Assembly (NCBI GenBank): GCA_017506865.1 | Contig: JAFCMP010000057.1 | Location: 1,240,001-1,304,000 of the forward strand | Direction: 5' to 3' | From: Tribonema minus | Lineage: Eukaryota; Sar; Xanthophyceae; Tribonematales; Tribonemataceae | DNA: 64,000 nt | Shown here: positions 417 to 63,569 of the stretch, piece after piece | Layout: each line of letters starts with the position of its first letter | Numbering within the stretch: the first letter of the stretch is position 1 | Notes under the pieces: generated by a model | The model's input: only the letters and a program-made list of their open reading frames with translations | The model's database searches: none | What the model was told of the DNA's origin: nothing | Program-made: the position numbers and the translations under genes

Positions 417-3400
417 CTACTTGTCCCAGAACGCCAGCGCCGCGCCCTTGTCCCACGACGTGGCGACGGCAGCGGGCGCCGGCGGCGCGGCATCCGCAGC
501 GCTGCTCAGCGGTTCCTCCTCCTCGGCAGCAGCGGCGGCGGCGGCCTTGACCGGCGCGCCGTTCTCCTCAGCGGCGTCGAGCGGCGCCGCCGCGTCGGCG
601 CCGGCGTCGCCGGCAGCAGCAGCAGCGGCGGCGCCGTCATCAGCAGTGCTCAGCGCCGCGACCGCGCTGCTCAGCTCCTCGGCGGCGGCGGCGGCGGCAG
701 TGGCGGAGGCAGCGGGCGTGCTCAGCATGGCGGCAGGCTCCGCCTCTGCGGCGGGCGCTGCCTCGGCGGCGGGAGGGGGGACGGCGGCAGCGGCGGCGGC
801 GGCGGGCGGCGGCGGCAGCACCGCGCTGCCGCCGTGGTCGGCGTTGAGCGTGATGCCCGTGAAGCCGGAGCGGTTCTCAGAGCGCTCCATGATGCCGCCG
901 GAGCCCATGCCTGGGGGTGCAGTTGGGGCGGGGGTGTAGGGGGCGGGGGGGGGCAAGGTGAGCTCCGTTCGGTACGAGTGAGAACGGGGTGCAGCAGGGA
1001 TGGTGGTGAATGTCGATGGCTTCGGTCGCGAGCGCGCAGAGCGCGCGCGTGCGCACAGAGGGCTCGTGCGCGTGTTTGCCTGCCATGCGCATCGGCATCC
1101 TCACAGTCGCGCACCGTCCGCTGCGGCCGCGCGGTGCACGTCGCATTTGCCATGTGCCGCTCGAGCCACTTTGAAGCAAGTGTAACTGCAGCATGAACTT
1201 GGAAGCAGCGCTAAACAGCGCGGGCGCGCGCGTCAGTGCTCAACGCTTGGCTTGCACGTGTCGCAGCACACTACTGGCGCTTGGTGGCACGCTCCGGCTT
1301 TCACCGAATGTGCTTGCTCGTGCAAGCTCACACATGCCTGTGTATGGACAAATCAACGCGCGCTTCACCCGACAACTCTGACGCACGAATGACTTGCACA
1401 CGCCGAAGCGTGCCACATACGGCACACATTCGCGTCAGCGCACGACGCACACACGCGTCCGCGCCCCCTCGCGACCCCCTTCCCCCCCCCCCGCCCCCCG
1501 GCATACCCCCACCCCTCTACCAACATGCCCCCCAGACTCACGAATGCCCACAGGCAGCGCACTGCACGCCACGGCACCATACGCACGCACAAACCCCCGT
1601 AAGCAACAAGACACTGCGTCAGCACTCGGGACCACACATGTGAACGCCCACTGCGATGCCGCGGACGGCATCAGCGCGCACTCTTCGACTTGTACAGAGC
1701 ACACTTGCAATGCTCCACTACAGGGTCCACATGTGCCTCTACGCGTTGGCTACATCAGAGCAGACACTTGGTTGTCAGACTCCACCTCGCTGATTCGCAG
1801 CGCGCGCTGCCGCTCATGTGTGTGTATCTGTACCTATACTTCAAAAGTTGAAGTATAGCGTACTTCAAAATTGAAGTATAATGCACATACCCGTGAGCGG
1901 CACGGAGTTTGCGTCCGCGCCCGGACTTGCATATGTCAGCGCCCGTGGTGATGCCGCTCGCGGGCACCTCCTTGCGCTCCATGATGCCGTAATGATGCTC
2001 ACGCTCACATATGCCTCTACAATAACAGTATGTATACTAATTCGCAGACTTATTACTTGCGGACTCTGCCTTGCTGACACGCGGCCTTGCGCGCTGCCGC
2101 ACGTCGTACATACATACCTGTAAGCGGCACGGCATTCGCGTCAGCGCTCTCACGTATGCCTCTGCAACTGCAGCATACCGTTGCAGGCGTACCCCTTGCG
2201 GACTCTGCGCTGCCACACTTGCGTACACACATACCTGTGAGCGGCACGGCGTTTGCGTCAGCGCTCGGACCGCACATGTCCGCGCCCATGGTGATGCCGC
2301 TCGCGGGCACTTCCTTGCGCTCCATGATGCCGTACGAGCCGAGGTTCGCCTGCGCGACCATGTTAGCGTCCACAGAGGGCCCTGCGTAGTCCGCGCCCGA
2401 TGTGATGCCCGTCTTGACGATTGTGGAGCGCTGCCGCAGCGAGGGGGAGGGGGGGGGGGGAAGGGGGGTAGGTGGGTAAGGCAGCGTCCGCAACGCAATG
2501 ATAGTGGTGATGCACAAGTCTGTCAGGGACCAATCATTTTCTGCATCAGTGAGGAAGATGCCACCTGAATGATTGTGGCGCACTGCTCCGATCTGAGTGA
2601 TTGTGGGGCACTGCTCCCCACTTCTTGCCACCAAGTCAAATTTTTCAACCCTGCTCTGGCTGCACGCGCGGATCTGCGTCATGGACATTTAAGCGAAGCC
2701 TCTCGCGTCCACATCGCCTGTGCGCCGACGCAGCGCGGCGCCGCTGCGCGGTCTCCAACAACGACTTCGCAGCCATCACTTGCGCATCGGCAGCGCCCAC
2801 AGCGCTACCTAGGGGTGCCTGCGAGTGTGAGCGTCGCACTTGCACTCTTCGCCCCGGATCGCAGTGCCTGCGGCACCGACCCGAACTCACCCCCACCTTT
2901 ACTACGACCCCCTCCCTCACCCTAGACCCCACCCTATCCCGAACCCTAATCCCCCCCACCCACCCCAGTCTCTCTGACACGCGCTCTGACTGTGCCAGCG
3001 CTCACCTCCATGATATCAAAACCTACTCTCACCCTGATCCTGATCTTCACACACCTACCCTCACCCTGCCCCCCCCCCCCCCCCCCCCCAACCCCCCCAA
3101 TGAGTTGCTCGTCGCTAACCAGGTGTACTTGCACATCCCCCCCCCGCCCCCCCCCGCTCTCTGCTCACCTCCATGATGCCCGCGGAGCCCATGGAGCTGT
3201 GCGGCACGGCGTTGGCGTCGGCGGACGGGCCGGCGCTGTCGGCGCCCATGGTGATGCCGGTGCGCACCACCTCGCTCCTGTCCATGATGCCGTAGCTGCC
3301 CATGCTCGTCATGCACATGGACGATGTGTCGCCGATGCCCGCGTACTCCGCGCCCGCCGTGATGCCCGTCTGCGCGCGGCACAGCAGTTACAGTTACAGT

Positions 3401-6400
3401 TATGCGCTGTAAAAAAGTGTGACTTCAATGGTTGCGCCAAATTACAGTCACTACACACACGGCTGCAGTGATTGAGAGCGCCGCCGTGATGCCCGTCCGC
3501 GCGCACGCGGCATAAGCAGTTGGAGTTGAAGTTGAAGTTATGCCTGAGTGTTGTCGTCACAGGTACTGATTGGCAGGCTGTCGTGGGTGATTGAAGGTAC
3601 GCAAACTTTGATACTTGCGCCTGATTACAGGCCCGTGTCGCCAATGCCCACGTACTCCGCGCCCGCCGTGATGCCCGTCTCAGCAGTTACAGTTACAGTT
3701 ATGCGCTGTGAAAAGTATATTATGTATATCACTTCAATGGTCGCGCCTAATTACAGTCACTACACATACGGCTGCAGTGATTTAGAGCGCCGCCGTGAAG
3801 CCCATCTGCGCGCACGGCGCACAGCAGTTACAGTTACAGCTACGTCCGATGCATGGTGCATGGACAGATTGAGAGGCAGCCGTGACCGTCTGCGTGCGCG
3901 CCGCGCAGCGGTTGCGATTACCGTTGCGGCGCGCTTTTGATAGGCGCGCTTGATGCAGTCACTACAGATACGCCTGTAGTGACTGAGAGCCCCGCCGTGA
4001 TGCCCGTCTGCGCGCGCGCAGCACGGCACTTACAATTACGCCTTGCGTGATCTGCAACCACCGCCTGATGTGAGTGACACTTTGATACTGCTACTGCAGT
4101 CACTGACTGAGAGGCTGCCGTGATGCCCGTCTTGCAGTTGCGGCTAAAGTCCCCGACCACAACAATCTATGCGCTTGAGTGGGAGCAGTATGCGGCACAC
4201 GCACGCTCCTGCCTGTGCGGTGCCCAGTTTTCGTAGTGGCGGCAGCAAACGCACGTCCCGCGCAGCCGCCCGCCGCTGACCCTCTGCGACACCAAGGAAC
4301 AATCTACAAAGGGCCACCTCAGCTAACATAATGTCTGTGATCACCTGATCACCTGGTGAAGCAGCCACTGTGCGAGGTAGCCAGTGTGCTCTGATGCATC
4401 GTGGACACGAATGAAAATATTGTAGAGCTCTAGGTGATGAGTCCTGTCTTGGTTCATTGGCGCTGCCGCTGGGTTAGGGTTACGGTTAGAGTTGGGGTTA
4501 GGGTTAGGCCGCCTCTCACCTTGACGATGGGCAGGCGCTCCATCACCGCGGCGCTGCCCTGCATGGCCTTGGTAATGGTCGTGTCGAGGCTGTGCAAAGT
4601 AGCCACTGCGCTTTGATGCATCATGGAAACGCATGAAAAGATTGCACAGCCCCAGGTGACGAATTCTGGCCTCAGTTCACCGGCACCGCCGCCGCTTGCG
4701 CCGCCGCTCTCACCTTGACTATCGGCAGGCGCTCCATCACCGCGGCGCTGCCCTGCATGGCCTTCGTCATGGTCGTGTCGAGGCGCGCCTGGCGCATCTG
4801 CTCCGCCGTGAACTCGCGCTTGTTGGCGGTGTGCGGCTTAGCGCCGAGGTGCGGGCCCGCAAACTCGGGCGTCGACGACTGCACCGCGCTGCCCAGCGCA
4901 AAGAGGCAGCGGATGACGAGGCCGACGTCCTTCTCCTCAAAGAGGTCGACCGTCTCGAAGAGGGAGTACTCGGCGACGCCGAGCGTGCGGCACGCCTTGA
5001 GGACTGCGTTGGGGGGGGGTACCAGGGGGGGGAGTACACAGTACAATTTCAAGAGTACAGGATCCGCAGCGCGCCCGGAGTACTGCATGCGTGTAGGGTA
5101 CACGGGCAGTTGCAGAGTACAGCATCAGACTATGCGCCAGGGGTCCTGTGCTGCGCGCTGCAGCACGGCGCAGGTGAACTGGATGCACAGAGCACAGCGG
5201 CGAGCACAGCACCAGTGGCAGACTGTACTCTGCAGGGGCGGTGTGCACCGGCAGAGCCGCACTGCTGCGCGCATGCCAAATGTACCGCGTGCAGCGGCAG
5301 AGTGAAGCGCCAGCAGCGATGCGTTCTGTGCAGAGTGCTGCATCGGCGGAGCAGCGCGGTGCAGGTGAACGAGGAGTACAGAGTACAGCGTCATAATACA
5401 GTGAACTGTGCACGGCGGTATGCACCGGCGGATACACAAAACGTCAGTGGCGCGGGTACACAAAGAGTACAGACGTACACGTCTGAGAGTACGGCGCCAG
5501 CGGTAATGACGAATGCCACAGTGCAATGCGCCGGCAGGGCAGCGGCGGCGCGTGACCACGTGCCGCGGCGCTGCGCCGCGTTCTCCGTGCTGATTGACAG
5601 CGCGCTGCAGTGCGAGGCCACGACGCCCCACGCAGCAGCACAGCGATGAGGCCTATGTAGACAACAAGCGAGACGCCACGTGTCGTTGTGTTTGGTGAAT
5701 AATAAACACGCGAGAAGGGCCGCCGGCCAACATGGCGTCTGAATGAGCGTACTGCGTGTCATGGCGCTCATCGCCGAGGCCGCCTCAGATGACAACTCCA
5801 GAATGCGGCACGGCAGAAGCGCCGCATCAGCGGGCGCTGTCCCCTGACGGCACAGCGTTCGCAACTTCAACAGCAAAATCACCACTGCACATGTCTCCCC
5901 AGCGCTCGGCATCGCAACGGTGCACCGCCTGTACTGCCGTATTGACAGACGTTAGGACTGTATGCAGTGCTTCGAAAAGAAGTCTGGACGCGCGATGCGC
6001 AGCGGTTCGGCACAGACAATCGAATCGCGATGCGTGCGCGCAGAGCGGCGGCCTGCCTGCACGGCCGTTGCGCCGCAGCAATTAATCTCATTAGAGAATC
6101 TCCGCTCATGTCGCGAAATCGCAGATGCCAAAGCCACACACTCTGCCTCGCATACACAAACACAGCTGGCGGTCCCGCAAAATGCGGCAGCGCTCAACAG
6201 CGCGTAGACAGCGCTCAGCGCAGCCAGCGCAACTGCGCAGCGCTGTACATCGAGGCAGGTGTCTCAAGCAAAGTGCTCAAGCCGTTGGCCCCACGCGTGC
6301 GTGCGCCGCGCGCTCCTTCTACAGCCTGTGGCAGTGCACGATACTCGGGTCGCCTGTCCGATGTTGAGGATGCGGGCAACTGCTCCGCTCAACGGCGGTG

Positions 6401-15387: not shown

Positions 15388-16136
15388 TTACCGGCGGCGG
15401 CGCCGGACCAGAGCACCACTCTGTCGGGTGCATCATGAACTTCACAAAGTAGTCCATTGCAGTACGTTCTTGCAAGTGTTCCTGCGCCCTCAGAGCGAGG
15501 AAATCCTGATATAAACCGCACGTGTACGCCGCTGCGCAGTCTGGCGGCAGCGCTATCAAAAGAGCAGCACTCCCTTAGGCATATCATGAACTTCAGAAAG
15601 TAGTCCAATTTGAAACGTGTTCTCACAACCGTGCTTACTTGGAGCAAACCGGACATCCCCCGCGCTTGTCCGCCGCCCGCGCAGTTTGCTGGCGGCAACG
15701 CCGTCAAGAAGCGCAAATGTTCATCATTTACTTTACAAAGTAGTCCATTGAAGTACGTTCTCACAACCGTGCCGAGGGAACCCTGACATCAGCCGCGCCT
15801 GACCACTGCCGCGCAGTCCGCCGGCGGCGGTGCCGTCAGCAAGAGTAATACCTCATCATTGTCAACACTCCATTATGTTTGTCATGAACGAAACACAAAT
15901 ACTTCGTTGAAGTACGTTCTACAAGTGGCGCCATCTCGGAGCGATGGAGCTCTGATATCAGCCGCGCCTGCCCGCCGCTGCGCAGTTTGCCGGCGGCAGT
16001 GCCTTCAACAAGAGCAACACTTTGTTAGGTTTATCATGAGCTTCACAAAGTAATCCATTGAAGTACGTTCTCACAGCATCTCGGGGCGAGGAACCCTGAT
16101 TGAACCGCTTGACCGCGCCTGTCCGCCGCCGCGCAG
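15388..16136 (+). repeat. Tandem array of an exon acceptor edge (five copies before the true exon)
   Basis: Copies of cgcag followed by TTTGCCGGCGGCAGCGCC lie at about 15388, 15538, 15685, 15817 and 15986. The intact exon follows at 16137. Units are about 130-170 bp and each includes TTCACAAAGTAGTCCATTG-like and GAAGTACGTTCTCACA-like intron sequence. Copies have drifted by substitutions and small indels. Confidence 0.85.
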
Positions 16137-16286
16137 TTTGCCGGCGGCAGCGCCGTCAACAGCATCGAGGCCGCGCTGGAGGACGACGCATTTGGGCTGG
16201 CGCATGAGCCCGTCGCCAAGCTCATCCACACGGAGTGGACCAAGGAGGCACTACCAGATGACCATGACGACAATGACCTGGAGTGA
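16137..16286 (+). CDS. Last exon of an unrecognised plus-strand gene
   Basis: The exon begins after gccgcgcag in phase 0 and encodes 49 residues before TGA at 16284-16286. It opens FAGGSAVNSIEAALEDD and ends DDHDDNDLE, an acidic tail. Codon third positions are mostly G or C. The five decayed copies of its acceptor edge immediately upstream show that this is a real exon boundary. It converges with the minus-strand gene ending at 16621. Earlier exons may lie at 14404-14925. Function unknown. Confidence 0.5.
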   Translation, partial: FAGGSAVNSIEAALEDDAFGLAHEPVAKLIHTEWTKEALPDDHDDNDLE

Positions 16287-16620: not shown

Positions 16621-19600
16621 TCAGTCGTCCTCCGCCGATGATGACGACGACGACGCGCCCTCGCTGTCAGACGCGAGCACGCGCCGCCGCTTCCGCTCCC
16701 GCTCGACACCGCGCTCGTCGTCGCTGCCGCTGCGCCGCGGAGCGCCGCCGTGCTGCCGCGCGTCGCCGTCGGACGCGCCGCTGCCCTCGCTGTCGCTGCC
16801 GCCGCCGCCGCCGTCAGCGACGCCGCCGGCGGCGCCCTCCGCGCCGCTGCCGCCGTCGAGGTCGAGCACTGCCTCCCTGTCGCTGTCGCTGTGCTCGGAG
16901 GGCGTGTCCTGCGCCGCGGCAGCGCAGAGTTCTGACGTGAGATGCGATGTGACGGCGTACTGCAGTGGGCGCTGCGCGATGGCGTGGGGCTACACGACCG
17001 CAGAGCGCTATAAGGGCAGTCCTTGTGCTGCGACAGCCCAGGACTCAGACAGCCACGTGACTCAGACAGCCACGTGGAGGTGACTGAAGGGAGAGGCATG
17101 TGTGCAACACCCTACGACAGCAGCTGGTGTGGTGGCCCTGCCGAAGAGAATGGCGCATACAATGGTGCACGGCCGTAGCTAGAAGCATGCGCCATCGGAC
17201 AAGCACGTCCACAACCCTGGCTGGTCGTGACGTGACAAGCGTGTGCGCACTGGTTCATGACGAGGTTCGAGCGCGCCATCCTTGCGTTGCCGACATGCTT
17301 GAGGCATGCGCCAAATCGTTGAAGCGGCGCCTGAAGGGTCTGCGACTCCCCAATCAACACACCATCACCACCGGCGCGCTCGTCACAGATGACTGATACT
17401 ATAGTGGACGGCCAACTCCGCCCGCAGCATCACACGCAGCAAACGCCGCACTCACGTCACGCAAACGGCGACGCGTGACGTGTTTCGTCGCGCGGCCTAC
17501 TTGCCTCCTCATCGACAGCCGACCCCACGTGCAGCATATTATGCGCAGCAACCACCGCAGTCATGCGACGCGTCGCGACATGCGTCACTTCTTCATTCAT
17601 TTTCTGTTTACGCACCTCCTCGTCGACGACGAAGCCGTCGTCCACGTCGTACTCGTCGTCGTTGCGCACGGGGAGGTCCACGTGAAGCTGCAGGTGCGGC
17701 ATCGCGCGCCACAGCTCGCTGAAGTTGCCCTTGAGGTCGAGGAAGAAGTCGTGGCGTGCGACGTCCTGTACAAGCTCCGCTGCCTGCAACAGAGGCGATG
17801 CCTTTGTAGGTTAGCGTGGCAACCCTAGAATCATCTGCTTCGATATATCAATTTCAGACATCGGCTCGTCTTCATTGGTAGTACTTGAAAAAAGTCACAA
17901 AGCTTTATCATCACTTTATAAATTGTAACGCTGGTGCCTACCAGTATGTTGATGCATGCTGTGCACCGTAAGAGGGGGCCTTTTTTAACCCCCCCAGGGG
18001 TGGATACCAAGAAGACGAGAGCACCAGAGGACCGACGCCCATCGTGTGCTGCTGACCATATGCCGCCGGCTGTCCCACACCTAACACAACTCCTGTAACC
18101 GTCAGCGTGCAACAGCAACGAGCATTTAACCACAAATATGCTCCAACCGTTTGATCAGTAAAACGGGCGCCACAAGTGCGAGCTCTGCCTCAGGTGTCAC
18201 CCTGCGGCCACCGTTGCTACCGCGGCGGAGGCTTACGCATTCCGCTACGCATCGAGCCGCAATGCGCCCGTGGACGTCACCGCTGTGAGCACAACCGCTG
18301 CTCCAGCCCTAACCCCACAACAAGCGCTGATGCGAACTACCACTACCCCTAAGCCTACAGGGGGCTCACCAGCTGGCGCTCTTGTCCCTCACAGAAGGCC
18401 GCTAATAAGCCCGCGGCCTGGCGCTTGGTGGTGCACGTCTCGCACAGCCGCCCGCAGTAGTTGCGCCGCTCGCGCCAGGGCCAGTGCTCAGCGCCCACCT
18501 GCGCCATCTGCGCGCAATAATACGGCACAGGCAGATGGTATGTATGCTGGGTATGTATTGACTGTTATGTGTAAGGTTGTGTACGTATTGACTGTTACGC
18601 GCCACGGCCAGTGCTCCGCGCCCACCTGCGCCATCTGCGCGCGCGCACAACAATAACGGCAAGCACAGGCAGATGGTATATACAATCTTTTGATTCGTTT
18701 ACATGTATGCTGCGTTCGTATTGACTGTTATGTTATGTGTGAAGTTTTGCCGCTCGCGCCAAGGCCAGTGCTCCGCGCCCAGCTGCGCCATCTGCGCGCG
18801 CGCGCACAACAAAGACGGCAAGCACAGGCAGATGGTATATACGATCATTTGATTCATGTCCATGTTTGCTGTGTACGTATTGACTGTTAGGTGTAAAGTT
18901 GCGCCGCTTGCGCCAGGGCCAGTGCTCTGCGCCTACCTGCGCCATCTGCGCGAGCGCGCAACAATAACGGCAAGCACAGGCAGATGGTATGTACTTCGAA
19001 GTATGCTGTGTACGTATTGACTGTGATGTAAGAAGTTGCGTTGCTGGGCCCAACCCGCGCCCACCTGCGCCAGGTGCGCACGCGCAACAAACGGCAGGCA
19101 CCGGCAGAATGTATGCTGTGTGTACGCATTGATGATGGTGTGAAAGGGTGCAGCGACGTAGCATGCACCGTGCAGGCCTGGCAGAGGGAGTGCCACTTGT
19201 TGTTATTTGCGCTACACTACACACTCGCATCTGAAGAAGGCATCTCAGATGCGCCTACTGCAGGGCTGCTGAAGCGTGAAGCTAGGTAATGCACAGATCG
19301 CCAATGCCGCCAACGCATCACTTTCAACTGCATTATGAAGTGTCACAGAACATTATGATGTCATTATAGCCGTGAGTGACAGGCGTAGCGCATTTCAAGC
19401 GTGTCTGAGTTGTTGAAGTAGACACTTGAAGTAGAAATGAGCAGCCGGCCACAACCAGCTCTGCATTCACGCCCATGCCTGAATGCTTGAGACAGGGTCC
19501 TTCTCCGTGCAATACTAAGTGATACACCCCTTGTATTACTGCCAACGCTACTATTACAACAGCGAATCACCTCCTCCAGCGCCTCCTCGTTCTCCAAAGA

Positions 19601-38600: not shown

Positions 38601-41600
38601 CCATGGCGCCCGTGAAGTCCGCCATCATCGCCGTCACCAGGTTGCCGCCGAGCATGCGCTTCACGAGTGCGGGCGCGTAGCGCTGCTGCTCCAGCCTGGA
38701 CAACAGCGCGTGGCGCGCAGCACAGAGTTGAAGTGCAAGAATACAGCAGCAGGGGCACATGGTGCAGAGTGTCATCGCTGCCACAGCTGCAGTCGAGCTG
38801 CTTGGCCGCGGGCGCGTAGTGCTGCAGCTCCAGCCTGACCACCGACGGCGCGCGGCGCGCAGCGCATATGCACAGTTGATGCATGAGGATACAGAAACAG
38901 TAGTAGTAGTAGATAATGCAGAGCGTCGCTGATGACGCCTTGCAGCCTGCAGTCGAGGTGCTTTGCGGGCTTGCGAGCAGATAGCGCTGCTACTGCAGCC
39001 TGACCGCCGACAGCGCACGCGGCACGTAGCGGGGACGGAGCGGTGAAGCACGGACACTGGTAGTTGACGTGGAGCATCGGCAGCGGCACAGCGCAACTGC
39101 GGCCGCGCCCCATCGCAAACCCCCCAAGGTCGCCCGTTGCAGTGCACGTTGAATAGACGAGGACGGGCGTGGAGCGCTGCTGCTCCAGCCTGGCAGCTGA
39201 CAGTGCGCATGGCACGCAGCGAGTACGCACAGTTGAAGTACGAGGACACAGCAACAGTAGCAGTAGATGGTGCGGAGCTTGTTCCTTGCGCGCACGTGCA
39301 ACCCGCTATGCGGCGCCACTGCAACCGCGCTGGGAGCTGTCTCAGTCATGGACTCACTCATTGACTCGCTCACTCATTGGCACTCACCACGCGGCGACCC
39401 CGTGTCAGCTCATTCGCGCCGGGAGTTGTCTCACTTGAGGACTCACTCACTAACTCAGTCACTCGCAATACACGGCACTCACCACGCGGCGACCCTGCGC
39501 ACGCCTGTCAGCTCGTCTGCGCCGAGCGTCATCAGCACCTGGACTCACTCATTGACTCACTCACTCACTTGACACTCACCACGCGGCGACCTTGCGCACG
39601 CCGGTCAGCTCCTCCGCGCCGAGCGTCGCGTGCACCGTGCCCTGGTCCTCCGTGTTCAGGCAATCAAAGATGTTGTAGAATATGTCTAACGTGATGGTCG
39701 CGTTGAACTGGGACGTGCACAGGTCCGCCGCCGTCAGCTGCGCCTGCGGGAAGTTGAAGTTGTTGTGGTGTGAGTTGTTGAAGTATGGCGGCGAGGGCGC
39801 GGCGGCGGCGGCGCACAACAGCGGCGCACGGTGCAGAGCGCTCGCCGCCCGAATGCGGCGCCATTTGAGAGGGGGGCAACTGCCGCCGCGTCGTTGAGCG
39901 CTGAGGAGTCTGCCTTGCGCCCGCAGGCTGCGTGCAACGTGGGCGGCGCTGGAACCCTTGCGCTCGCGGGTCGTGCGCTGCTGAGAGGCGGCGCGCGAAG
40001 GCACTGGGTGGCGCGCCCATGCGCGGCGTCGCAGAGGATGTCGGGCTGCACGCCGCTGCTACGTGCCGGGTGTGAATGCGCCTGCGAGTGCACGTCGGCA
40101 AGCAGTGCGCGCAGCACGAGCGACCCTCGCCCCACGCCCAAGCCACTGGCCTTGGCCTTGGCCTGATCTGACGGCCAGAGGCGGGCCGAGGGGCTGCGCG
40201 GCGGAAGGCGACGGTCGTTGTACGTCGGGCGCCGCAGCGCCATGGCGTATTGGCACGTTCAAACCTCAAGTGCTCAACGACGCGATGACAAGCGTACGGG
40301 CAGTAAACCTCAAGTGCTCAGGTGCACGGCAACAATTGATGCGGGCAGTGTGAGCGCTCCTCACCCCACTCCAAGTCCCACATCATCATCACCACCCCTA
40401 ACCTCGGCCTAACCCTAACCTGGAGGCTCGTGAAGAAGCATCGTTACAGCGCGGGTTCACCAAGTCTGGGACCAGGCGGCGCCAGAAAATGCCGAGCGCT
40501 GATGCTGCGCAGCAGCAGCGCTCACCTGGAGGCTTGCAAAGAACCCGCCGAGGCGCATCTGGTACGCCACGAGCGCCGATGTGCAGACCGCGGCGACATG
40601 AATATGGGTGCGGCAGCGCGCAGACTGATGAATTCATGAGTGAACGCATGAACAACAGTGTACGCGGCGGCGGTGCTGCTCACCTGGAGGCTCGTGAAGA
40701 ACCCGCCGAGGCGCGCCTGGTACGCGACGAACGGTGCGGAAGTGTACACCGCGGTGATGGCGGCGTTGTACGTTGGGCACTTGTCGAACGCGCGTATCGC
40801 GACGTCGTTCGTCCCCGTCGTGGAGTGCACTGGCACGACCGTCAGGTTGTAGGGGAGCAGCGAGGGGGAGTCGGGGTCGGGGGGGAGGGGGCCCTTGAGC
40901 GCGCCACGCGGGGGGTACAGGCCGTACATGAGAGACGTCGCGGACGCCAGCGTGCGGTCCGTGTCGCTGGAGTTGACCTGCAGAAGGGGAGGCGGAGGGG
41001 GCGTTGACGTGCATGAGTAGCTGTAGGGGGTGGTGACGGTGATCAAGTGCCAGTGTGCGGTCCGTGTCGCCGGGCGGTGATCAAGTGCAGGAGTGCGCTC
41101 CGTGTCACTGGAGTTGACCTGCGAGGGGGCGCGCGGGGGGGGGGAAGGGGGGGGGTCACTGACATGGGCGGTGGCTGTAGGGCGTTGTGTCTAATTCAGC
41201 ATGCCGCGTCTTGCATGCGGTCCGTGGCGCCAATGTCAGCTGCGGCTCGTAGCACATGTTTGCTGAGCGCAAAAGTGCCGGGGTGAGGGCGAGGACTCGA
41301 GCATGTAGCTGCGACGCGCGCGCGCACACCATGACTTTGGCCAGGTCAAACGTGGCGAGGCCCGCCATCGCCTGCGGCGGCACCGCCTCCGCGGCCCCTT
41401 CAACTTCAATTTACAACTTCAACTCCTGAGCACTGTTACAACAAAGGTGACACCGAGCGCAGCGCCGCGCGCGCGCACCATGACTTTGGCGAGGTTGAAT
41501 GTGCCGAGGCCTGCCATCGCCTGCGGCGACGCCGCCTCCACAGCCACAGCCCCTTTAACTTCAATTTCCAACTTCAACTCCTGAGCACTTTCTAACTATG

Positions 41601-42789
41601 GTGACGCCGAGCGCAGTGCCGCGCTACCATCTTGAAAAAGGATAGGTAGTAGAGTATCTTGAAACGACCGTTAGCTGCGGCGCGCGCGCGCGCACCATGA
41701 CTTTGGCGAGGTCGAACGTGCCGAGGCCCGCCATGACCTGCGGCGACGCCGCCTCCACGTAGCGCCTGCGCAGCGAGACGCCGGCGTTGTAGCACATGAG
41801 CTCGCCCTCCGGCGTGAGCGCTGCTGCGGGGCCGCCCATGGTGTCCGTGTTGTTGTACGGGTCCTTGATCAGCGGGCCGCGCTCGCCGTGCCTGCGGGGC
41901 GCGCAGGGGGAGGGAGCGTCACTCACTTGCTTGAAGTTCGCCACCGGCGGCGCTATCAATGATACAGGGCGTTGTATCGATGATGCGGGTCGTTGTGAAA
42001 AAGAAGCAAACAAGGTTCCAGAGATGCCCGCATGCCGTCCAACATCGCCCCTGTAGTCCGTGTTGGCGTAGGGATCCTTGAGCAGCGGGCTGCACTCGCC
42101 GTGCCTGCGGGGCGCAACGCGCAGGGGGGGCGCCACTCACTCACTTGAATTTTGCCACCAGCATCATCAATGGTGCGGGTCATTGTTAGGAATAGAGAGC
42201 GGGATGGCAGAGGCGCCCATGTGCTGTAAACGTGTCACTGGATTGCCTGGTAAAGCTTCTGTTGAGATTGCGCCGTGAGAGTGGGCTTCGCCGCGCAGCA
42301 TCGCATCAGAGCAGGACGCTTCGCGACAGATCACATTCGCAGTGACGCACTCCCGCGCCTTCGGACAGCGGTCGCTTGCAGTGGCAAGAAGAAGGTTGTG
42401 CGTGCTGCTGCGAGTGGCTCTGTGAATTGCGCATGCAGCAGCCAGGAAAGCCTGCAGGCGGTCCAAAGTACTACCGTGCATTGTGAATTTGTATTTGTTG
42501 CTGCCATTATTGGGTATTGCTGGTGCTGGTGTTGGTGCTGCTGCCGCTGCCACTGCCGCTGCTGCAGTCAGTTCCAGTACACAGAGAACAGCAGTGCAGG
42601 AGTGAGAGCTCGGGCCTTCGGCCAGATTATCATGCCGTACATAGCACCCGAGTGCACAGAACCAGATTGTAGAGCCACTAAGCAGCACAATCCTCTGTTC
42701 ACTTGCCTGGTGAGCACTATAGCATGCTCTACAGTCCAGGCAGCATAGGCGCCACAAGCCTGCAGCAGAGCCAGCCCAGCTATCCTCAT
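35632..42789 (-). CDS. Histidine acid phosphatase-like, secreted or membrane-anchored; last exon out of frame
   Basis: Histidine phosphatase superfamily, acid phosphatase branch. Exons: 42707-42789, 41696-41891, 40684-40977, 39580-39743, 38554-38695, 37917-38075, 36907-37074 and 35632-35855. The first seven total 1206 nt in frame (402 aa). Exon 1 is a signal peptide (MRIAGLALLQACGAYA) leading into AIVLTR. Splicing through a GC donor then gives the catalytic RHGER (His29). The distal site reads VWSGHYP (His291), where the family normally has GHD, so the usual proton-donor Asp is absent. The last exon encodes a C-terminal transmembrane helix (AYAAVTVVCVVGAAALGFVG) but is reached one phase off. 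Upstream in that exon the in-phase frame also looks coding. A frameshift, a micro-intron or a base error is likely. Activity is uncertain. Confidence 0.86.
36585..36795 (-). repeat. Echoes of the phosphatase exon 7 donor edge
   Basis: Two near-full copies of the last 75 or so exon bases (CDECGNTTADICLKAQ, then gtgag) start at about 36588 and 36700. The true exon end is 36907. Both preserve the donor. Confidence 0.85.
38800..39195 (-). repeat. Echoes of the phosphatase exon 5 acceptor edge
   Basis: The acceptor plus exon start (LEQQRYAP) recurs in decayed form at about 38822, 38983 and 39174. Each copy is followed by CACAGTTGAAGTACGAGGAC-like intron sequence. Units are about 140-190 bp. Confidence 0.8.
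39345..39560 (-). repeat. Echoes of the phosphatase exon 4 donor edge
   Basis: GGCACTCACCACGCGGCGACC recurs at about 39378 and 39476, ahead of the true edge at 39571. ACTCACTCATTGACTC spacers lie between copies. Units are about 95 bp. Confidence 0.8.
40400..40575 (-). repeat. Echoes of the phosphatase exon 3 donor edge
   Basis: The exon end (QARLGGFFTSLQ) and donor are repeated at about 40520-40575 and, shorter, at 40420-40440. The true edge is at 40684. Confidence 0.75.
41300..41560 (-). repeat. Echoes of the phosphatase exon 2 donor edge
   Basis: Two further copies encoding QAMAGLATFDLAKVM with intact donors end at about 41330 and 41480. The true end is 41696. Flanking intron includes CAACTTCAATTTACAACTTC. 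Confidence 0.85.
42045..42125 (-). repeat. Echo of the phosphatase exon 2 acceptor edge
   Basis: A diverged copy of the catalytic exon start encodes RHGECSPLLKDPYANTD after an intact acceptor. The true exon reads RHGERGPLIKDPYNNTD. The copy has lost the RHGxR arginine. Confidence 0.8.
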
Positions 42790-43969: not shown

Positions 43970-46900
43970 TCAGTCCCGTTTCGCCGTTCGCCGCACGCCG
44001 TGAATGAGGCCCACTAGCAGGCCCGACATGGTGAAGACGCCGCCGACGATGGCGCACGTGCTGGTCAGAAAATTGAGGAAGCCCTCGGCGTCCTCCTGTG
44101 GCACGTCGGTGGATAAGGGTCGAAGTCAATGTTGAGGTTGAGGATTTGGTGGCAGCTCGAGAGCAACTCATGGCCGTTGTGGCATGGGGCCGACGGCAGC
44201 GGCCTGAAACATGCCACGGTGATTGACAAGGACAAGCCCTGTTGCGATACTTTTGGATAGAGTAGTGCAATGGACTATGTTACTGTGGTAACAAGTTCAC
44301 ACGCCCCGTTGAAGGTGGCACTCGTCGGCTACGTAAGCCATCCTTGAGCGGTGAGGGCGAGCTGTCACCTCACACTGCTGATCAGATCCAGCAAGGCCTG
44401 AAAGCTGTTGCCGCACTGCGCCGTCACCATGAGCAGCATCATCCACAGCTGTGCATAAGGTATTGGAGTGCCAGTGCTGCTATTCAATCCACAGTTACCG
44501 CCCCCTCTGCTCAAGCGTTCGCAACCCGCAAGTGCTGGAGAGCTCACCGTCAGTGCTACCAAGCGAGCAGCTTGAGACGGGGGAGGAAGGGTGGTAGCCA
44601 CGTGAATTCATTACTTGGTGCGGTGCGCACGAACAAAGTAAGTAGACGAATGGGACAGGCACAGAGCCACTCACAAAGCATTAATACAAGCAGCATCACC
44701 ACCACCCACACAGGAGAGACAGATTGTGCTGACGAGCAAGCGCACAGACGCAGACGCACATAACAATCGATGTGGGGTAGGTATGTAGGCATGGTTCATG
44801 ACTGCCGATACCAGCAATATATCAGTAAACACTCATAAGTATCACCAGCCACACTGCAGAAACGGGACGTGCTGATGGGCAAGTGCACCGATGCAGACGC
44901 GCGTCTTGACTCAGGTGGGATATGTAGGCATGGTTCACGACTGTACATACCACCAATGTATCAGTAAACACTTCAATGTACTTCGAACTATCACTAGCCA
45001 CACCGCAGAAAAGGGTTGTGTTGATAGGAATGTGCACCATGCAAGAAGCAGGTGCGTGTCACGATTGATGTGGGGTAAGTAGGCATGTTTCACGACTGCC
45101 GATACCACCAATATATCAGTAAACACTTCAACGTATCACCATCCACACTGCAGAAACGGGGTCGTGCCGATGGGCATGCACCATGCAAGAAGCAGACGCG
45201 CGCGTCACAACCGATGTGGGGGTATGTAGGCATGCGTCACGACTGCCTATACATACCAGCCCACGGACCGCGCGCCGCTCACCTCGCGGTGCACCATAAC
45301 TGGTGTGAAGTCGTACGCAAAGTGCACACCCGGGTATCGGCGCGCCTCTGCAGCAGCGGGACAAGGCGCGAGCGAGACGCCGCAAGTGAGGATCGGCGCG
45401 AATGCGTGCACGCAACGCTTTGGCAGATATGGCCATGGAATAGACAGGTTTGTTGACCTTGGTGTAAACAATATACAATCTTGACGATGACATGTGCCAT
45501 CAAGTACTTTTCATCAATTCCACAAAGTACTTTGAAGTGTGTACGAACGCCGTGCACGCGTCAGAACAGACTGGCGCGCGGTGGTTGGGCACGCGTACAG
45601 GCGGCGGCCATGCGTCCATGCCCCTTTCTCAGACACACGTGGAGGTAACAGCCTGTGCGTGGACTGACCGCATGGCAGCGACGCGCTCACGCCGCAGCGG
45701 CAGGCGTACGCCGCGTCTCGGGGATTGCGCTGGCGTCACTAACGACGATCGGCGTGCACTGAGCGGTGCTGCACCTCATCACAAGCGCGCGCGCCACCGC
45801 TTGGGTGGAGACGCCCCCGCCGCCAGCACATTAACCCTAACTCTAGTTCTAACCCTAACCTAACTTTAACCCTCACCCTAACTCGAATTTTAACCCTAAC
45901 CCTAACCCGAAATGCGTGTGCTCCACGGCAGCCAGTGCGCTGCAACACGCGCACATCGGGGCTAACAGCTGCCTCAACCACTTTTACAACAGAGCACTCG
46001 TCACTTAACCACCTAACCCTAGCCTTGACCCTCACGCTGACAGCGATCGGCGACTGCCTGCACTTGCTGACGCACACTGCCAGCTACTGTGCCCGACGCA
46101 CTTCTTCACACTTGAACCTCAGTCTTGAAGTTGTCGATGCACCAACGCAGGTCTGATACTTGAGATCTGATGCTGCGGCAGCGGTGCATCAAATCCATTG
46201 GTGTCTCTGACGCCGAGCGCTGCTGCAGATCAGCGACCGTGTGCAGAGCGACGCAGGACACATACACATGTACACACAGAGATGCCATCTGGCAATGTCG
46301 TTTAGAAGTGATCGTCAGTGCGCACAGAGACACTTTCAAGGTGTTCACAGAATACATGTAGATTCCGGCAGCAGGCTGCACATACACCACCTGGGCTTTT
46401 TCGCGCCCTGAGCGAGCATTTATAAAAAGTACACGCGCGGCGAGGCCAGCGATTGCTACTGCGTACAGCGCAGCGAAGACAGAGTACAGGCAAGTACAGG
46501 GGTGTACTGCTACACTGTACACAGTACTGACAGCGCGGCTCCGCGTGAACGCTCGCACGCACCTCTGTTGGCCGCCAGCGCCTCCTTCGTCTCGTACTCG
46601 CTGCGCGCGCATCACACACGACAGAGCAACGCCACAAACGCGTCAGGGACAGTCGGCCGCATTCGCAGCAGGCGCAAGATGCGGCAGCTTTGGGTCATGG
46701 CAACTTTGTGCAAGTGAAATGCTTTGCTGAGCGTCATCGAGGCGCGAGGCGCATGCGCGTGTCCACGCGTCTGCAGCTGCGTCAACGGCTCGTGCTGCGT
46801 GTGATGCAGTGTCCGCGTGCATGCAACAGTCCGCCATGGACAGGTCAGAGTCCACAAGAGCTCATCGCCAAAGGGCCTGGACTTGAAGTTGCAGTGGGGT

Positions 46901-55809: not shown

Positions 55810-55811
<2 letters not shown>

Positions 55812-55850: not shown

Positions 55851-55852
<2 letters not shown>

Positions 55853-56884: not shown

Positions 56885-59800
56885 CTATAAGAACTCCGCC
56901 GTCTGCATGCGCTTGGCGCGCTTGTTGAGGCCGAGCTTGCGCGCCTCGCTCAGTCGCTTGGTGCCCCCGCCGCTGCCCCCCTGCTGCTGCTGCTGGTGCG
57001 GCTTGCCGCCGCCGGAGCGCTGCCCCCCGCCTGATGAGCGTTGCTGCGGCTTACCGGCGACGCGGATCGCGGCGGGCGCGTCCTGCGGCCGGGTGCAGCA
57101 GTAGTTCATTATTAATATGCAAGCACGGGATGTTGATCACTTTGAAGATATGATGCCCCCTTCAGCAGCGGGACTTGCCGGAGATACGGCATGGGGCGAT
57201 TAGTGTATGCACAGCCAGGAGTACAGGTCGGCGTTGAGTGTGTGCACGCAAAATGCGCGGGGGGGCAGTCCAATGCACAGGCCCTACTGCGGGGGGTGGA
57301 TGCGCTGCAAGACGATGCGCGTGTCCCATCATGCGCCGGCATGGTGTGGTGTTGCGAGCGAGATATGCGCAAGCATGCCATCAATCATGGCACGAGCAGC
57401 ATGGACACCAGCCAACAATCGCCATGCATCCTTACCACTCAGACCTGCCCCCCCCCCCCCCTTCCCTTCAATGCATGCCATGTTCCCCGTGTGAACGCCA
57501 GGCGCAATGGAGGCAGGCGCTGCCTGGTCTCAAGTAACCCCCCCTTCCTACACATATGCTCCCCCTACACTGCACTCCTCACCTTGAGCGCGAAGCTGCG
57601 CGCGACGTGCCCCAGGTGCAGCGCGCGGACCTGGAACGCCTGCTTGGTGTCGGCGCTGTGCGTCGCGTACGCGCGCACGTGGCTCTGGAACGCCGCACGC
57701 GCTGCACACGCAAGCGGCGAGACGGACGCAGAATGGGCAAGAGGAGGTCGCACAGAGTCAAGCGTGGCGGCGCGCAGCATGGCGCCGCTGGCGCGTTCAT
57801 CGGCAGGCATCGTAACTTCAACCTGCGAACATCAACATGCGTGATTGCATCGCGGTGAAGCGGTGCGCACAGTGCGCGAGCAGGGCGAGCGATCTGATGT
57901 GCATGGTGCATCGAACAGCAGCGCAGAGCGCATGGCAACGTCGGGCCGGGCGTGCTTGGACGTCGCGAGCATGAGAACTGGACCCTTGCTGCATTGTGTA
58001 CGCTGACACAATGTGCTAACGCCTGGCCAGCTTCGCTAGAGCCTGCTGCGGATGCCGCAGAGCGGACACGTGTGTTAGTGCAGCCAATCGCAGCTGCTTC
58101 CGTCACCAATGAGCGCGCAGCCCATGGATCTCGGCAAAGGTATCGACCACGCCCACCTCGCGTGGACGTACCAAAAGTGGGCGCAGGAGGGCAAATGTCT
58201 CAGTCTCCGGCACGAGCGCGGCGCATGCACCAGATGCGCAGTGCCCCTGTTCGCTTCAACTGATCACAGGAAACTTCAACTTCAAAGCATGCCGCTTTCT
58301 GAGGAGCTCACCGCTTCCGCCGTTGCCCTCCACAAGCGCCTGCAGCGCCTGCTGCAGCTCGCAACATATCTCAGCTGCAGTCTACCTTTCCTGTGATACA
58401 GGTACACCTTCAGCTGCATCTTCTGTACTTCTACTTCAAATGAGAAGTAGAAAAACATAGATGTACCTTTCTTGAGCAGCTCGCCGCGAGCGCCTTCCCC
58501 CTCCACGAGCGCCTGCAGCCCCTGCTGCAGCTCGTACGCGACCTCCTCGTCGGGGTTGCGCGTGCGGCTGTGGCGCTCCTCCGCGCACGCGCGCAGCGCC
58601 GCCTGCAGCGACAGCGCCTGCGGCCGCAGCCCGTGGCTCTCCAGCACCTTGAGGTAGTCCTGCATCCATGGCGTGGAGTGCAACAAGCGATGGTGTGAGC
58701 AGAGGGGTGGAGTCCCTTTTTCAAGCGAAGCGCTCATTTTTCTGAAATTTTTTTCACCGCCCCGAGCGCTGCTGCGGCGCCAGCCTGTCAGTCAATGCCG
58801 TGTCGTTGTTGTTGTGAGACGTGCTTCTGCGCGTCCTTTGATGACCGGCGTCAACAGGCTCCCGCCGCAGCGGCAGGCAGAACTGGCTGCTTGTTCGGCT
58901 GCGGCAGTGCCAGCGGCTGCAAAACGCGCCCATCAAACACCTGACAGGCCGCTAAGACATACTATACTCTCAAGGTTTAAGGTGGTCCAGGACCTTCAGT
59001 TGCGCCTGTTGTGAATACATAGCACGAGCGGGTGGTGCAATGGCACCTGAAGTTCCAGGCTCCTTCAGCAGGTCTGCGACCAGACCCCTGGCAACAACAA
59101 CAACGGCGGCTGCCGCCGCAGCCCAAAGCCTGCGTGAGCGGCGCAGGAGTTACAAACGCAGACATGTGCTGCTCTGTGGCACGAATACGCCGCCCGATGA
59201 GCACTGCCACCGCGCAGGAACCGGGCAGTGCAGCCGCTGTGCACGGACGCCCTGTTTCTACAGCTGCAGTACCTGTGCAGACGCAATAACCCTAACCCTA
59301 ACCCTGAACCCTAACCCTAACCCTCACCCCAACCCTAAGTACCTGCAGTGACGTGCACGACGACACACCGCTGCATGCAGACAACGGAGGTGTGAGTACT
59401 CAGCAAATGCGGCGCCTCCAGTGGGGGGCGCGACGGCGATGCGGCATCGTGCGCAACGCGACGGCGGCACCGACCACTATGGTTGAAGATACACTTGTAT
59501 ACCTCCAGCAATGTGTGTACTCAGGGCACACTACTTCACTGGCGTGCGCACTGCAACCTACTACTTCTTCAAGTACTTGAAGTATACACATGCACGCGTC
59601 ACGTGTTGCAGCGCTCACCGTCTCCGAGGGCATGAGCAAGAGCTGCGCGGAGCCGGCAACACGGTATGTGACGTGACAGCGGCGCCGACCACCGTTGCCT
59701 ACATGCACGCAGTCCTATGAACTTGCCACTTGGAGCGTGTGTGTACGCAGGGCTACTTAAGTATATATTCAACAATCACATGCGCACGCATGCGTCATGT

Positions 59801-62800
59801 GCTGCAGCGCTCACCGTCTCCGAGGGCATGAGGAAGAGCAGTGCGGAGCCGCGCTGGCCCTTGCGCGCGGTGCGCCCCACGCGGTGCACGTAGTCGCTGC
59901 GGCAGGCAGGGCAAAGGTTGGGGGGGGGGGGGGGGGGGGGGGGGGGGACAGCGGCAGTTCATAGCAGATTTGAAAAAGAACATGTCAGTGATGCGCCGAC
60001 GGTATGCCCTACTTGGTGCACGCAGTTGCTGCGGCACGCGGAGCACGTGTTGGGGGGGAGGGAGCAGTGGCAGTTATAGCATATTTGAAAGGGAAGCGGC
60101 AGCGCTCATGATGCGCTTGAAAACAGTCATCGGGCCAGAGCGCGTCGGCCTAAACCTAACCTCAACCCTAACCCTGACCCTAGCCCGACCCCTCACCTCC
60201 AAATTGTGCGCAGCAAAACCGCCCCCGGCACTGCATGAGAAACAGTACACAGATAACTGCCGGGGCCAGGCAAAAGCAGCGTGAGCGCTGACGGCAGCTG
60301 CGCTCACCGTGCTGGGCAACTGCACAAAATCGCCGGGCGGCGGTGCCACCGCTTCTAGAAAGCCTTCTTCAGAAAGACACGGGGGTTAACACGCGGTTGA
60401 GAGCGGGGAGGGTTAGGGTTAGGGTTAGGGTTAGGGTTAGGGTTAGGTTACACACGGCGACCGCGGCGCCACCGACGCCTCGGCCTTTCTGTCTATGGAG
60501 CTTGCGCATGCGTGCAGCCGTTGCCGCGCCGCAGGGCATCTGCGGCAGCATCAGCAGCAGCCGCAGCAGCAGCGGGTCTCCGATCGCCTTCACCTGGTCT
60601 CCACGGGCGGGTCGTACTGCATGATCCAGTCAACGGTGGGCAAGTCCACGCCGCGCGCGGCAATGTCAGCAGACCTCCGCCTGAGCATCGCCCGGCCTAC
60701 GCCTGAGCCATTGAGCTACATTCCCAAATAGTTGAACAAACGGGATTTGCAACCGTGACTTTCGGATAGAACAAAGAGTTGTTTTCACTTTGATGTGAAC
60801 GGTTTACATTTTTGTTGTACGATAACCTCATCCTCACCTGGTCTCCACGGGCGGGTCGTATTGCACGATCCAGTCAACGGTGGGCAGGTCGAGGCCGCGC
60901 GCGGCGACGTCAGTGCACAGCAACACGCCCGCGGAGCACTGCCCGAAGCCGCGGTACGCGACGATGCGCTCCGCCTGCGGCACGTTGCCGTGGAGCCTGC
61001 GCATGTACGTGAAAGTATGTGCAGTACAAGTACACGTGTGAGAAGACTGCCACATCGGCGTCCACAACGTGATACGCAGTCGCAGTCCGGAAGGTCTTAG
61101 TATCTTAGTCCTTTGATCACTGCACACGTGTACCGAGAAACTGCGGTCCGAGTACGCTTCACGCGGCGACGCGCTCCGCCTGCGGCACGTTGCCATGGAG
61201 CCTGCGCATGTAGGCGTGTATGTGTGTGCAGCACAAGTGGTGCTTGTGTGAGACAGGGGAACCGCCTCGACGTCTGGAGACCAGAGTCTGCGGTGCGGAC
61301 GCTCTTCCCGTGCAAAATCACCGTGGTCACGCAGCGCGCCTCGCTCGCGGTGCGTTCGCGTGTGCGGCGTGTGCGCGCGCGCACGAGACGAGCAACCGCA
61401 CGGGGGGGCGCCACAGCGCGGCAGTGCAAGTCAAGTGGACGCGTGACTTTTGCAACCCTCATATGAATGCGCTGCATGGACACGACGCTAGGCGGACAGG
61501 CGCCGCAACGCACTTCGGCTGAGGCGCGCTGCCGCGAGGCCTGCGCGTGCCAGTGCCGTGCAGCACGCAGCGTGAGCGCGGCTTCGTGCGCGCTGGGAGC
61601 GAAGCGCGATGATGACTCCACGCGAGCGCTGCGGGTTGGCCTCACAACAGACGTCTCACAGGACTTGCCGCAGCAGTGGCGACCAGGGATACTGGTGGAA
61701 GGCCTTTAATTTGACGGCTCACCACACAATGTCACCTAGAGCTCTACGATCTTCTGATTCGCTTCCCTGAATTCATCGCAGGCGCAGGATGCTTGTGAAG
61801 CCACACGGGCGCCTGCGAACGCCCTTCCGCACCGCGGCGCCAACATCAAATGCGTGCGTCGGAGAAATCGCTTGAAGCGTACGCGAGGTCGCAGCGGAGA
61901 GCCAGGGTCTATCAAAGCTAACACCGCCACTGTCGTGGGCGCAGCGCGTGGGCACAACGCGACCGGTGAGCGCTGCTGCAATTCTGATGATGTGCGCTCC
62001 GCACCAGCCCTCGCATACACACACCTGTACACTGGGAACCCCTGGCCGAAGAGGCCATCGGTCTTCTTGGCCGCGGGCGCGTCGTCGGGGAGCGTCTCCG
62101 TTCTTCTGCCGAGGCCAGAGTTGAACTCCGAACTGGCAGACACGCCCGCTACCTGCATATTTGGCGAAGGACATCAACGCGACATGTGCATGCACATTGT
62201 GAACACGTCCTCGTAAGCAGCGTGTCATAGGGCTTTCGTGGGTAAGATTGTGCCGGAGCCACATCCAGGGCAAGGCAGCGGGTGGGGCCCATTGACACGC
62301 ACGCACGCGCGCGAGCAGACTCCTTTTGCGTCTGGCAGCCCCCAAAATGAATCAGAATCGGAATACTTTCAGCCGTTGCCACACTGTCGCCTGCGTCGGT
62401 CAACGAGGTCACGGCGAGGCACTGGTGCCTGGGCAAGGCAGTGGGGGGGGTCCATTGACGTGCACGCACGAGCGCTAGCAGTCGTGTTTTCTTTTCCGGT
62501 AGCGCCCGTTGCCACCGGCGCCTCAGTTGGTCGGCAAGGTTGCAGCGTAGAGTCAGGGTTAGGGTCAGGTTCCTATTGCCTGAGCGATGAGGACAGGAGC
62601 TAAACACCAACCCTAAACAAATCGCTGAAATGCGCAGGCTCCGCATGACGGGCGCAACCGCTGTTGAACGTCGCGCAAACATCAGAACACCGCGCGGTCT
62701 CGCGGTTTGCAAGGATCTGCTCCGAAAGACGCAAGGATCTGCTCCGGAACCCGGCGGCGCCTCGAGGGGCCGTTCGCCGCCTTTTGCACAAACTTCACAC

Positions 62801-63569
62801 TGCCTGCTCCTTGTGACTCTGAGTCAGAGCGGCGAGTCAGAGTCAGAGTGGCAAGAAGCACCTGGTGCAGATCACAGGGGACCAGCGGCAGTGCGCAGCC
62901 AAGACAAAAACGTGATGGCAGCGCTCACCTTGGGCACGGGCGCCACGCCATCCGGCCACGCGGCGGCGGCGAAGAGCGCGTGGTGGAAGTCCACCGAGTC
63001 GCACGTCGACATGAACACGATGACCTGCGCGGGAATCAAACGTCCAACAACAAGCGAGGACAAGCAAAAACGTCAACAAGTGACGTTCAGAATATCCGTG
63101 TTCCTGCATTACAACAGCAGACAGCGCTGCTCGCCAGTAGCGGCCAAAGCAGTGGCTACGCTCTTTCACTTGTCATGTGCGGACAGCATGTGTGCTGTGC
63201 GACACAAGATGCAGCACCAAGCGGGCTCCTGCATGAGCGCTGCGACTGGCGTGCATCACGCACCGACCCGGTCGGTTGTTGGGGGAGAAACACGCATTGT
63301 TGAGGCAAGCCGGGCGCGCAGAAGAGAGCAGCGCGCCGAAAGCCCAGCCCTCTATTTGACCCTGCTCCTTATTAGAGGTCGCGAGAGGCATTAGTGTGTG
63401 CTGCGGGTGATGCGAACTGATGCAAGAGACAGGTGGTCTACACAGCGTCTTCAGTGACTGCGTAGTGACCGAGAAGGACACGTACCTTCTTATTGCGCCT
63501 CTGCCGCAGGAACGCGCACAGCGCGGGGAGGCGCAGCTTCTGCGTCACCACCATGTACTGCTGCACGAG
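56885..63569 (-). CDS. DDX31/Dbp7-type DEAD-box RNA helicase (5' part outside the window)
   Basis: ATP-dependent RNA helicase of the nucleolar DDX31/Dbp7 group, involved in large-subunit ribosome assembly. Exons seen: 63486-63569, 62929-63024, 62025-62152, 60838-60996, 59815-59896, 58467-58659, 57583-57701 and 56885-57082 (1059 nt, 352 aa plus stop, phases matching). Only the second RecA-like domain and C-terminus are here. They carry [37 protein letters not shown] (motif IV region), [29 protein letters not shown] (motif V) and [16 protein letters not shown] (motif VI). [12 protein letters not shown] and [13 protein letters not shown] are the C-terminal signature of the Dbp7/DDX31 group. The tail is Gln/Gly-rich and basic (GLNKRAKRM). 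The first exon shown opens in phase 0 with an acceptor, so upstream exons lie beyond 63569 or off the window. Confidence 0.92.
58298..58350 (-). repeat. Echo of the helicase exon 58467-58659 donor side
   Basis: GAGCTCACCGCTTCCGCCGT and CACAAGCGCCTGCAGCGCCT repeat the exon end region near 58480-58530 in diverged form. Confidence 0.65.
59287..59339. repeat. Interstitial CCCTAA tract
   Basis: About eight CCCTAA-type units, a few imperfect, in a helicase intron. Confidence 0.85.
59600..59660 (-). repeat. Echo of the helicase exon 59815-59896 donor edge
   Basis: CGCTCACCGTCTCCGAGGGC, then ATGAG.AAGAG, recurs about 200 bases beyond the true donor, which remains intact in the copy. A matching acceptor-edge copy (TTGGTGCACGCAGTTGCTGCGGC) lies on the other side at about 60010-60040. 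Confidence 0.8.
59920..59947 (-). repeat. 28-base poly-C run in the tract upstream of an acceptor
   Basis: On the gene's strand this C-homopolymer ends 24 bases before the exon start at 59896, with the 3' splice site between. It occupies the position of the polypyrimidine tract. Confidence 0.8.
60410..60450. repeat. Interstitial (TTAGGG)n tract
   Basis: Six perfect TTAGGG units in a row in a helicase intron, in opposite orientation to the tract at 59287. Confidence 0.9.
60585..60670 (-). repeat. Echo of the helicase exon 60838-60996 donor edge
   Basis: About 70 bases of exon end (encoding the [16 protein letters not shown] region) with an intact donor are repeated 245 bases downstream of the true edge. 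A short acceptor-edge copy also lies at 61175-61212. Confidence 0.85.
61694..61768 (-). mobile_element. Copy of the small dispersed element
   Basis: It shares GGTGGAAGGC, TTAATTTG, CTCACCACAC, TGTCACCTAGAG and GATTCGCTTCC, in the same order, with 8168-8242. The similarity extends upstream of the TCACCT end, so the mobile unit may be longer than the core. Confidence 0.55.

Follow-up and report, generated by a model that had tools for sequence, protein, structure and literature searches.

Introns of the alga Tribonema minus carry local tandem copies of their own exon edges

Echoes of exon edges in the window

The window analysed here is a stretch of 64,000 nucleotides from Tribonema minus (positions 1,240,001 to 1,304,000 of contig C57, JAFCMP010000057.1), part of a genome assembly of 158 Mb in 554 contigs. 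In several of its genes the intron next to an exon contains copies of that exon's edge with the splice site included, which we refer to as echoes, and such exon-edge echoes are a genome-wide feature not confined to the window. Pfam scans of the window identified a CH domain, ERV and ERGIC pieces, an SPB4-type helicase and a light-harvesting complex (LHC) gene, together with a GDSL lipase and a histidine phosphatase (His_Phos_2, minus strand), both matching below the family cut-off. The Helicase_C match falls at exon 60840-61013 (-), and an SPB4-type C-terminal extension lies near helicase exon 59809-59904.

Reading of the phosphatase gene revealed echoes at most edges, with GT downstream of the exon-end copies and AG upstream of the exon-start copies. 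An automated test with a probe of 40 nt of exon and 15 nt of intron detected echoes at 19 of the 87 predicted edges (some of which are false because an echo was called as an exon), against 33 of 1,528 control comparisons. Four of the 19 need qualifying: +60635 mirrors a helicase edge in antisense, 48566 and 58466 gave weak signals, and at 38834 the exon finder mistook an echo of 38695 for an exon. Direct tests added four copies at 18498 (-), four at 16136 (+), one at donor 4713, two at donor 41695 and three at acceptor 38695. The echoing edges, and some further local duplications, are as follows, with distances in bases.

41675..42120 (-), phosphatase exon with the RHG motif: acceptor junction 41891, echo near 42104 (score 38, distance 213); reading and automated test
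41309..41758 (-), phosphatase RHG-motif exon: donor junction 41695 (...GTFDLAKVM followed by GTGCGC), echoes near 41478 and 41329 (distances 217, 366); reading and direct test
40660..41130 (-), phosphatase exon after the RHG-motif exon: acceptor junction 40977, echo near 41118 (distance 141); reading and automated test
40410..40740 (-), phosphatase exon after the RHG-motif exon: donor junction 40683 (...GFFTSLQ followed by GTGAGC), echo near 40525 (distance 158); reading and automated test
39430..39640 (-), phosphatase: donor junction 39579, echo near 39482 (distance 97), more decayed copies by eye; reading and automated test
38650..39210 (-), phosphatase LEQQRYAP exon: acceptor junction 38695, echoes near 38834, 38999 and 39189 (distances 139, 304, 494); direct test
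36690..36980 (-), exon 36907-37053: donor junction 36906, echo near 36703 (distance 203); automated test
59600..60050 (-), helicase exon 59809-59904: donor junction 59814, echo near 59618, and acceptor junction 59896, echo near 60028 (distances 196, 132); automated test
60580..61220 (-), Helicase_C exon 60840-61013: donor junction 60837, echo near 60593, and acceptor junction 60996, echo near 61201 (distances 244, 205); automated test
27300..27710 (-), GDSL-like esterase: donor junction 27644, echo near 27326 (distance 318); automated test
29090..29300 (-), esterase: acceptor junction 29143, echo near 29283 (distance 140); automated test
29850..30100 (-), esterase: donor junction 30045, echo near 29871 (distance 174); automated test
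4500..4770 (-), calponin-homology gene: donor junction 4713, echo near 4519 (distance 194); direct test
3320..3690 (-), calponin-homology gene: acceptor junction 3369, echo near 3678 (distance 309); automated test
15530..16180 (+): acceptor junction 16136, echoes near 15985, 15816, 15684 and 15539 (distances 151, 320, 452, 597); direct test
18450..19080 (-): acceptor junction 18498, echoes near 18625, 18782, 18936 and 19064 (distances 127, 284, 438, 566); direct test
44679..45258 (strand not assigned): strong array of about 150-bp units, adjoining no recognised exon edge
33765..33963: young tandem pair of a 98-bp unit, the copies 99 percent identical, with a 3-base overlap where they join
34565..34738: young tandem pair of an 88-bp unit, the copies 98 percent identical, with 2 bases unmatched where they join

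An earlier note on this DNA had placed such echoes in several of these genes, and its claim held for the phosphatase, esterase, helicase and calponin genes and for the edges at 16136 (+) and 18498 (-), but not for Erv, where no convincing echo was found at an exon. At phosphatase donor 40683 a second echo is visible by eye near 40419, where it merges into TTAGGG-like repeats. The calponin-homology gene also has calponin-type coding repeats in its predicted exons (1917-3381, -), which are mistakable for echoes. The LHC gene at 23580-24457 (+) encodes a chlorophyll a/c-type light-harvesting protein, the closest solved structure being 9mcc_A, followed by acpPCI (peridinin) and fucoxanthin proteins, so that the alga probably has antennae of the chlorophyll a/c type; in its one short intron no echo was noticed. 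The PCP and cryptophyte phycoerythrin families had no match, in this genome or in the control genomes, and are therefore uninformative.

Kinesin genes and the extent of local duplication

The wider survey drew on 132 kinesin-motor matches in the genome, from which 16 genes on 14 contigs (L021-L036) were taken blind to repeats, the criterion being several exon matches close together. Exon borders were obtained from spliced protein alignment, and of the 84 introns aligned 8 were shorter than 150 bp and were dropped, leaving 76. A copy of the edge was present in the adjoining intron at 48/152 edges, compared with 12/1,520 cross-gene controls, an excess over control introns. Donors contributed 18/76 and acceptors 30/76 (controls 3/760 and 9/760), and when the intron flanking the exon's opposite side served as a wrong-side control only 1/74 gave an echo. 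Introns with an echo were longer (median 834 versus 624, p = 0.009). Divergence between copy and exon reaches about 25 percent, so the copies are not simple assembly repeats. The kinesin introns also show a strong phase bias, with 59/76 in phase 0, 10 in phase 1 and 7 in phase 2, and 3/76 donors are GC.

At 37 of the 42 echoing edges the nearest echo was 97-291 bases from the edge; at four it was closer and at one more distant. Unit length varied from edge to edge. Tandem Repeats Finder (TRF), run on 33 loci (308 kb), returned 30 arrays with a period of at least 60, with a median of 110.5 and 22 of the 30 at 80-250. This agrees with the head-to-tail copies, in units of about 50-200 bp, expected of tandem duplications of the break-repair (patch) type. 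We considered whether units shorter than about 110 bp are sharply excluded and rejected this as largely an artefact, as self-BLAST with cheap gaps missed the window's 88- and 98-bp duplications, which TRF and stricter BLAST recovered. Cheap gaps apparently merged short-offset pairs into the main diagonal, so that the self-BLAST figures for duplicate coverage are lower bounds; as such, in the 69 introns that are 300 bp or longer, local duplicates make up at least 32 percent of the sequence. Among random 10-kb genome samples, no local duplicates were seen in 3/16, and one of these three (L006) holds a retroelement-like aspartyl protease beside a cytosine-C5 DNA methylase match. Coverage, again a lower bound, was 0.096 for non-genic-like bases, 0.172 for intronic-like and 0.311 for exonic-like ones, but the classes are rough and the last is inflated by coding repeats, so these values allow no conclusion on intergenic versus intronic duplication rates.

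The repeats had been described as local and gene-specific, unlike introners, and this agrees with two array queries (16000-16600 and 41310-41690), whose listed matches in the genome are local, save for 77 bp matched at one other place. A kinesin intron does hold a dispersed element of about 65 bp (L023, about 2940-3005, +), which has at least about 40 genome matches at 81-93 percent identity, and is possibly a short transposon or introner-like element. TTAGGG-type interstitial repeats were observed in the window at 11813-11846, 45832-45911, 55638-55688, 59287-59338 and 60409-60447, and at other loci too. The exact double unit forms 39 clusters in 308 kb, with 61 start positions against 0.03 expected by base composition. 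These repeats may mark telomere-like additions at breaks; we saw no link between them and the duplication ends, 4/36 of which fell within 30 nt of a repeat compared with 0.235 of random positions.

How the copies probably arise and decay

We propose that introns in this genome are probably lengthened by frequent local tandem duplication of the end-joining type, tolerated while the exon-proximal splice site remains in use. Segments of about 90-250 bp would be duplicated frequently across the genome. A duplication inside an exon would alter the protein, and selection would purge it. A duplication within an intron, or spanning the exon-intron border, would leave the mRNA unchanged so long as splicing still used the exon-adjacent site, meaning the first donor or the last acceptor of a series. 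The edge left over, now non-coding, would decay and later duplications would shift it away from the exon, the outcome being introns that grow and hold graded copies of their own exon edges. The duplications, their positions, their decay and their link with longer introns are observed directly in the DNA, and protein homology suggests that the exon-proximal site is the one spliced. The mutations themselves would originate where staggered breaks or paired nicks are filled in and their ends joined.

The decay is evident in the codon positions. Mismatches between exon and echo numbered 131, 105 and 215 at positions 1, 2 and 3 (about 1,300 sites each), and those between echoes 235, 196 and 266, so that at positions 1 and 2 two echoes differ from each other about twice as much as an echo differs from its exon. 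The exon itself has changed mostly at position 3. Between echoes there is no coding constraint beyond a slight excess at the third position. These counts fit free, unconstrained decay of the echoes beside a constrained exon and, together with the greater length of introns with echoes, they uphold the earlier note's idea that segments spanning the border are duplicated locally and the spare edges then decay. In copies found via their intron part and reaching the exon, a subset pre-selected for exon-side identity of at least 0.7, identity was 0.877 on the exon side and 0.770 on the intron side, a divergence ratio near two. The copies were also said to be graded and often to keep GT or AG, and this too was confirmed. 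At 22 edges with several copies the nearest was more exon-like than the farthest in 17 and less so in 3, a gradient expected of any array built outward from one end. GT was present in 21/29 donor echoes and AG in 48/62 acceptor echoes, where crude expectations are 0.70 and 0.63, showing no sign of strong purging or strong conservation.

The idea that exon edges are the source of the copies was only partly sustained. Copies spanning the border are real, but edges are mostly not a special target; any excess is modest at best and lies at acceptors. With intron-only probes the share duplicated was 0.25 in mid-intron, compared with 0.22 on the donor side and 0.34 on the acceptor side, and the paired edge-minus-mid difference of 0.087 (0.015 to 0.162) was carried by acceptors. 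The exon edges are the readable part of duplication that takes place all along the intron. Most edge arrays (35/40) reach less than 75 nt into the exon, where the median exon is 145, unlike the whole-exon copies of tandemly duplicated alternative exons. An apparent sharp exonic limit at 57-60 nt was rejected as an artefact of the alignment window, uncapped reach spreading over about 20-75 nt.

Several observations weigh against lengthening by such local duplication. Acceptors echo more than donors (p = 0.054). An exonic reach to 75 nt was found in 5/40 arrays, where 0.25 to 0.43 would be expected depending on the unit lengths used (0.43 or 0.34 in one estimate and 0.37 or 0.25 in another, by choice of units), with p from 0.07 to 0.00004. 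A shortage of long exonic reach is therefore likely, although its size is uncertain; we read it as selection against long exonic copies, and a bias in placement is possible. Pairs of echoes, all of them non-coding, are 0.80 alike on the exon-derived side compared with 0.65 on the intron-derived side (random 0.47), and finding echoes via their exon side explains part of this gap, not all. One echo in intron 2 of L023 equals the exon at 66/66 bases, yet identity on its intron side falls to about 0.7-0.8. Finally, the evidence for end joining at the joints comes from four cases only. These are the youngest two-copy duplications (85, 88, 98 and 101 bp), whose joints show either a three-base overlap or one to three bases without a match; as far as four cases go, this would suit end joining better than slippage.

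The short exonic reach and the acceptor-carried excess would both be expected if splicing, R-loops or nucleosomes positioned on exons steered breaks or copying towards exon-intron borders, making the borders the source of new intron DNA. Such targeting could also account for the placement of the arrays, 39/53 of which reach at least 20 nt into the exon, compared with about 14 expected under uniform placement, with only 1/53 spanning both intron edges. We consider it unlikely, however, since mid-intron probes are duplicated as often as those near donors, 24/61 copies of the first intron bases stop short of the exon, and arrays at edges are easier to detect; because selection keeps one copy readable, the 39/53 is at least partly a detection effect. 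If selection maintained the echoes, perhaps as splicing decoys, or if gene conversion kept restoring them from the exon, this would explain why their exon-derived parts are the more alike, why the L023 echo is perfect and why many keep GT or AG. Such maintenance is improbable given that mismatches between echoes are spread over all three codon positions and are about double those with the exon at positions 1 and 2, and that dinucleotide retention is near the crude neutral expectation; the one unmatched spacer in L023 is due to the dispersed element that sits there. In single introns, gene conversion may have acted.

Growth of old arrays in the manner of minisatellites, by slippage or unequal crossing-over and with no special duplication process, fits the presence of up to eight copies at one edge and the grading of similarity with distance. 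That 18/40 echoing edges have a single copy, that unit length differs between edges and that the four young joints overlap by three bases at most make it a doubtful general account, although expansion of this kind can still add to existing arrays. The abundance of tandem duplications, and a similarity between donor and acceptor in L029 intron 4 and L030 intron 1, would also be compatible with introns having been born as one duplicated unit, through tandem duplication of coding sequence holding AGGT. Only 2/76 introns exceed the 99th percentile of controls, where about 0.8 are expected, and a single array of the 53 spans both edges; we rejected this as a general cause, and hold it to be very improbable. 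Returning to local duplication of the end-joining type, a stronger form can be put forward tentatively, in which introns lengthen mainly at their borders. Selection would keep the exon edge fresh, and each border-spanning copy would add a readable edge and push older ones inward; much of what now makes up introns could derive from copies of this kind, those no longer recognised having decayed too far. If this were true, echoes with intact splice sites could supply new exon borders.

These observations bear on how introns grow long without transposons, as here the added DNA is still readable and its source is the adjoining exon; introns seem to lengthen partly from pieces of neighbouring exons. 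The source exon is near-constant at codon positions 1 and 2, so that each echo carries its own clock, and the rates of duplication, decay and intron growth could be measured inside one genome. The echoes would also provide many natural tests of splice-site choice by the spliceosome among near-identical sites 100-250 bases apart.

Comparison with known systems

Patch-mediated tandem duplications in rice were reportedly described by Vaughn and Bennetzen in 2014. In rice, tandem duplications are the commonest insertions, are enriched at 50-200 bp and are ascribed to repair of nearby nicks, not to slippage (PMC7971508). The duplications in the alga are of the same type, but those in rice are new structural variants whereas in the alga we see decayed remains that occupy a large share of intron sequence and about a third of exon edges. 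Breaks with 3' overhangs in mouse and human cells give rise to small tandem duplications when Pol-alpha, guided by CST, fills in the ends and non-homologous end joining (NHEJ) seals them (PMC8355091). The likeness is that a short segment is duplicated at a staggered break and joined by NHEJ; the mouse and human breaks were induced, with overhangs of about 43-50 bp. By analogy, a process like these may be very active in this alga.

The earlier note knew of no described system that matches. This requires qualification, as the type of mutation is described (PMC7971508, PMC8355091), while for its build-up in introns, either as introns lengthened by exon-edge copies or as introns carrying them at about a third of edges, we found no description in the largely open-access literature searched. 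The mutational event is known and its accumulation in introns to this degree may be the new part, its rate being measured in this genome. Other systems share single features with the echoes. In one model, local duplication likewise places splice signals beside exon sequence, but there it creates a new intron (PMC2891723), whereas in the alga existing introns lengthen. During stwintronisation a donor element is also duplicated, and this is ascribed to repair of asymmetric breaks, but the duplication is of 4-7 nt (PMC7138796), compared with about 100-250 bp in the alga, where the spare sites decay. Introners are similarly a mutational source of intron DNA and are dispersed (PMC9860276), whereas the repeats of the alga are local and gene-specific. 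Direct repeats at intron borders are likewise known as short repeats near splice sites, where they are of 4-30 bp and one end of an intron is compared with the other (PMC11782384); those of the alga are long copies of one edge inside the intron.

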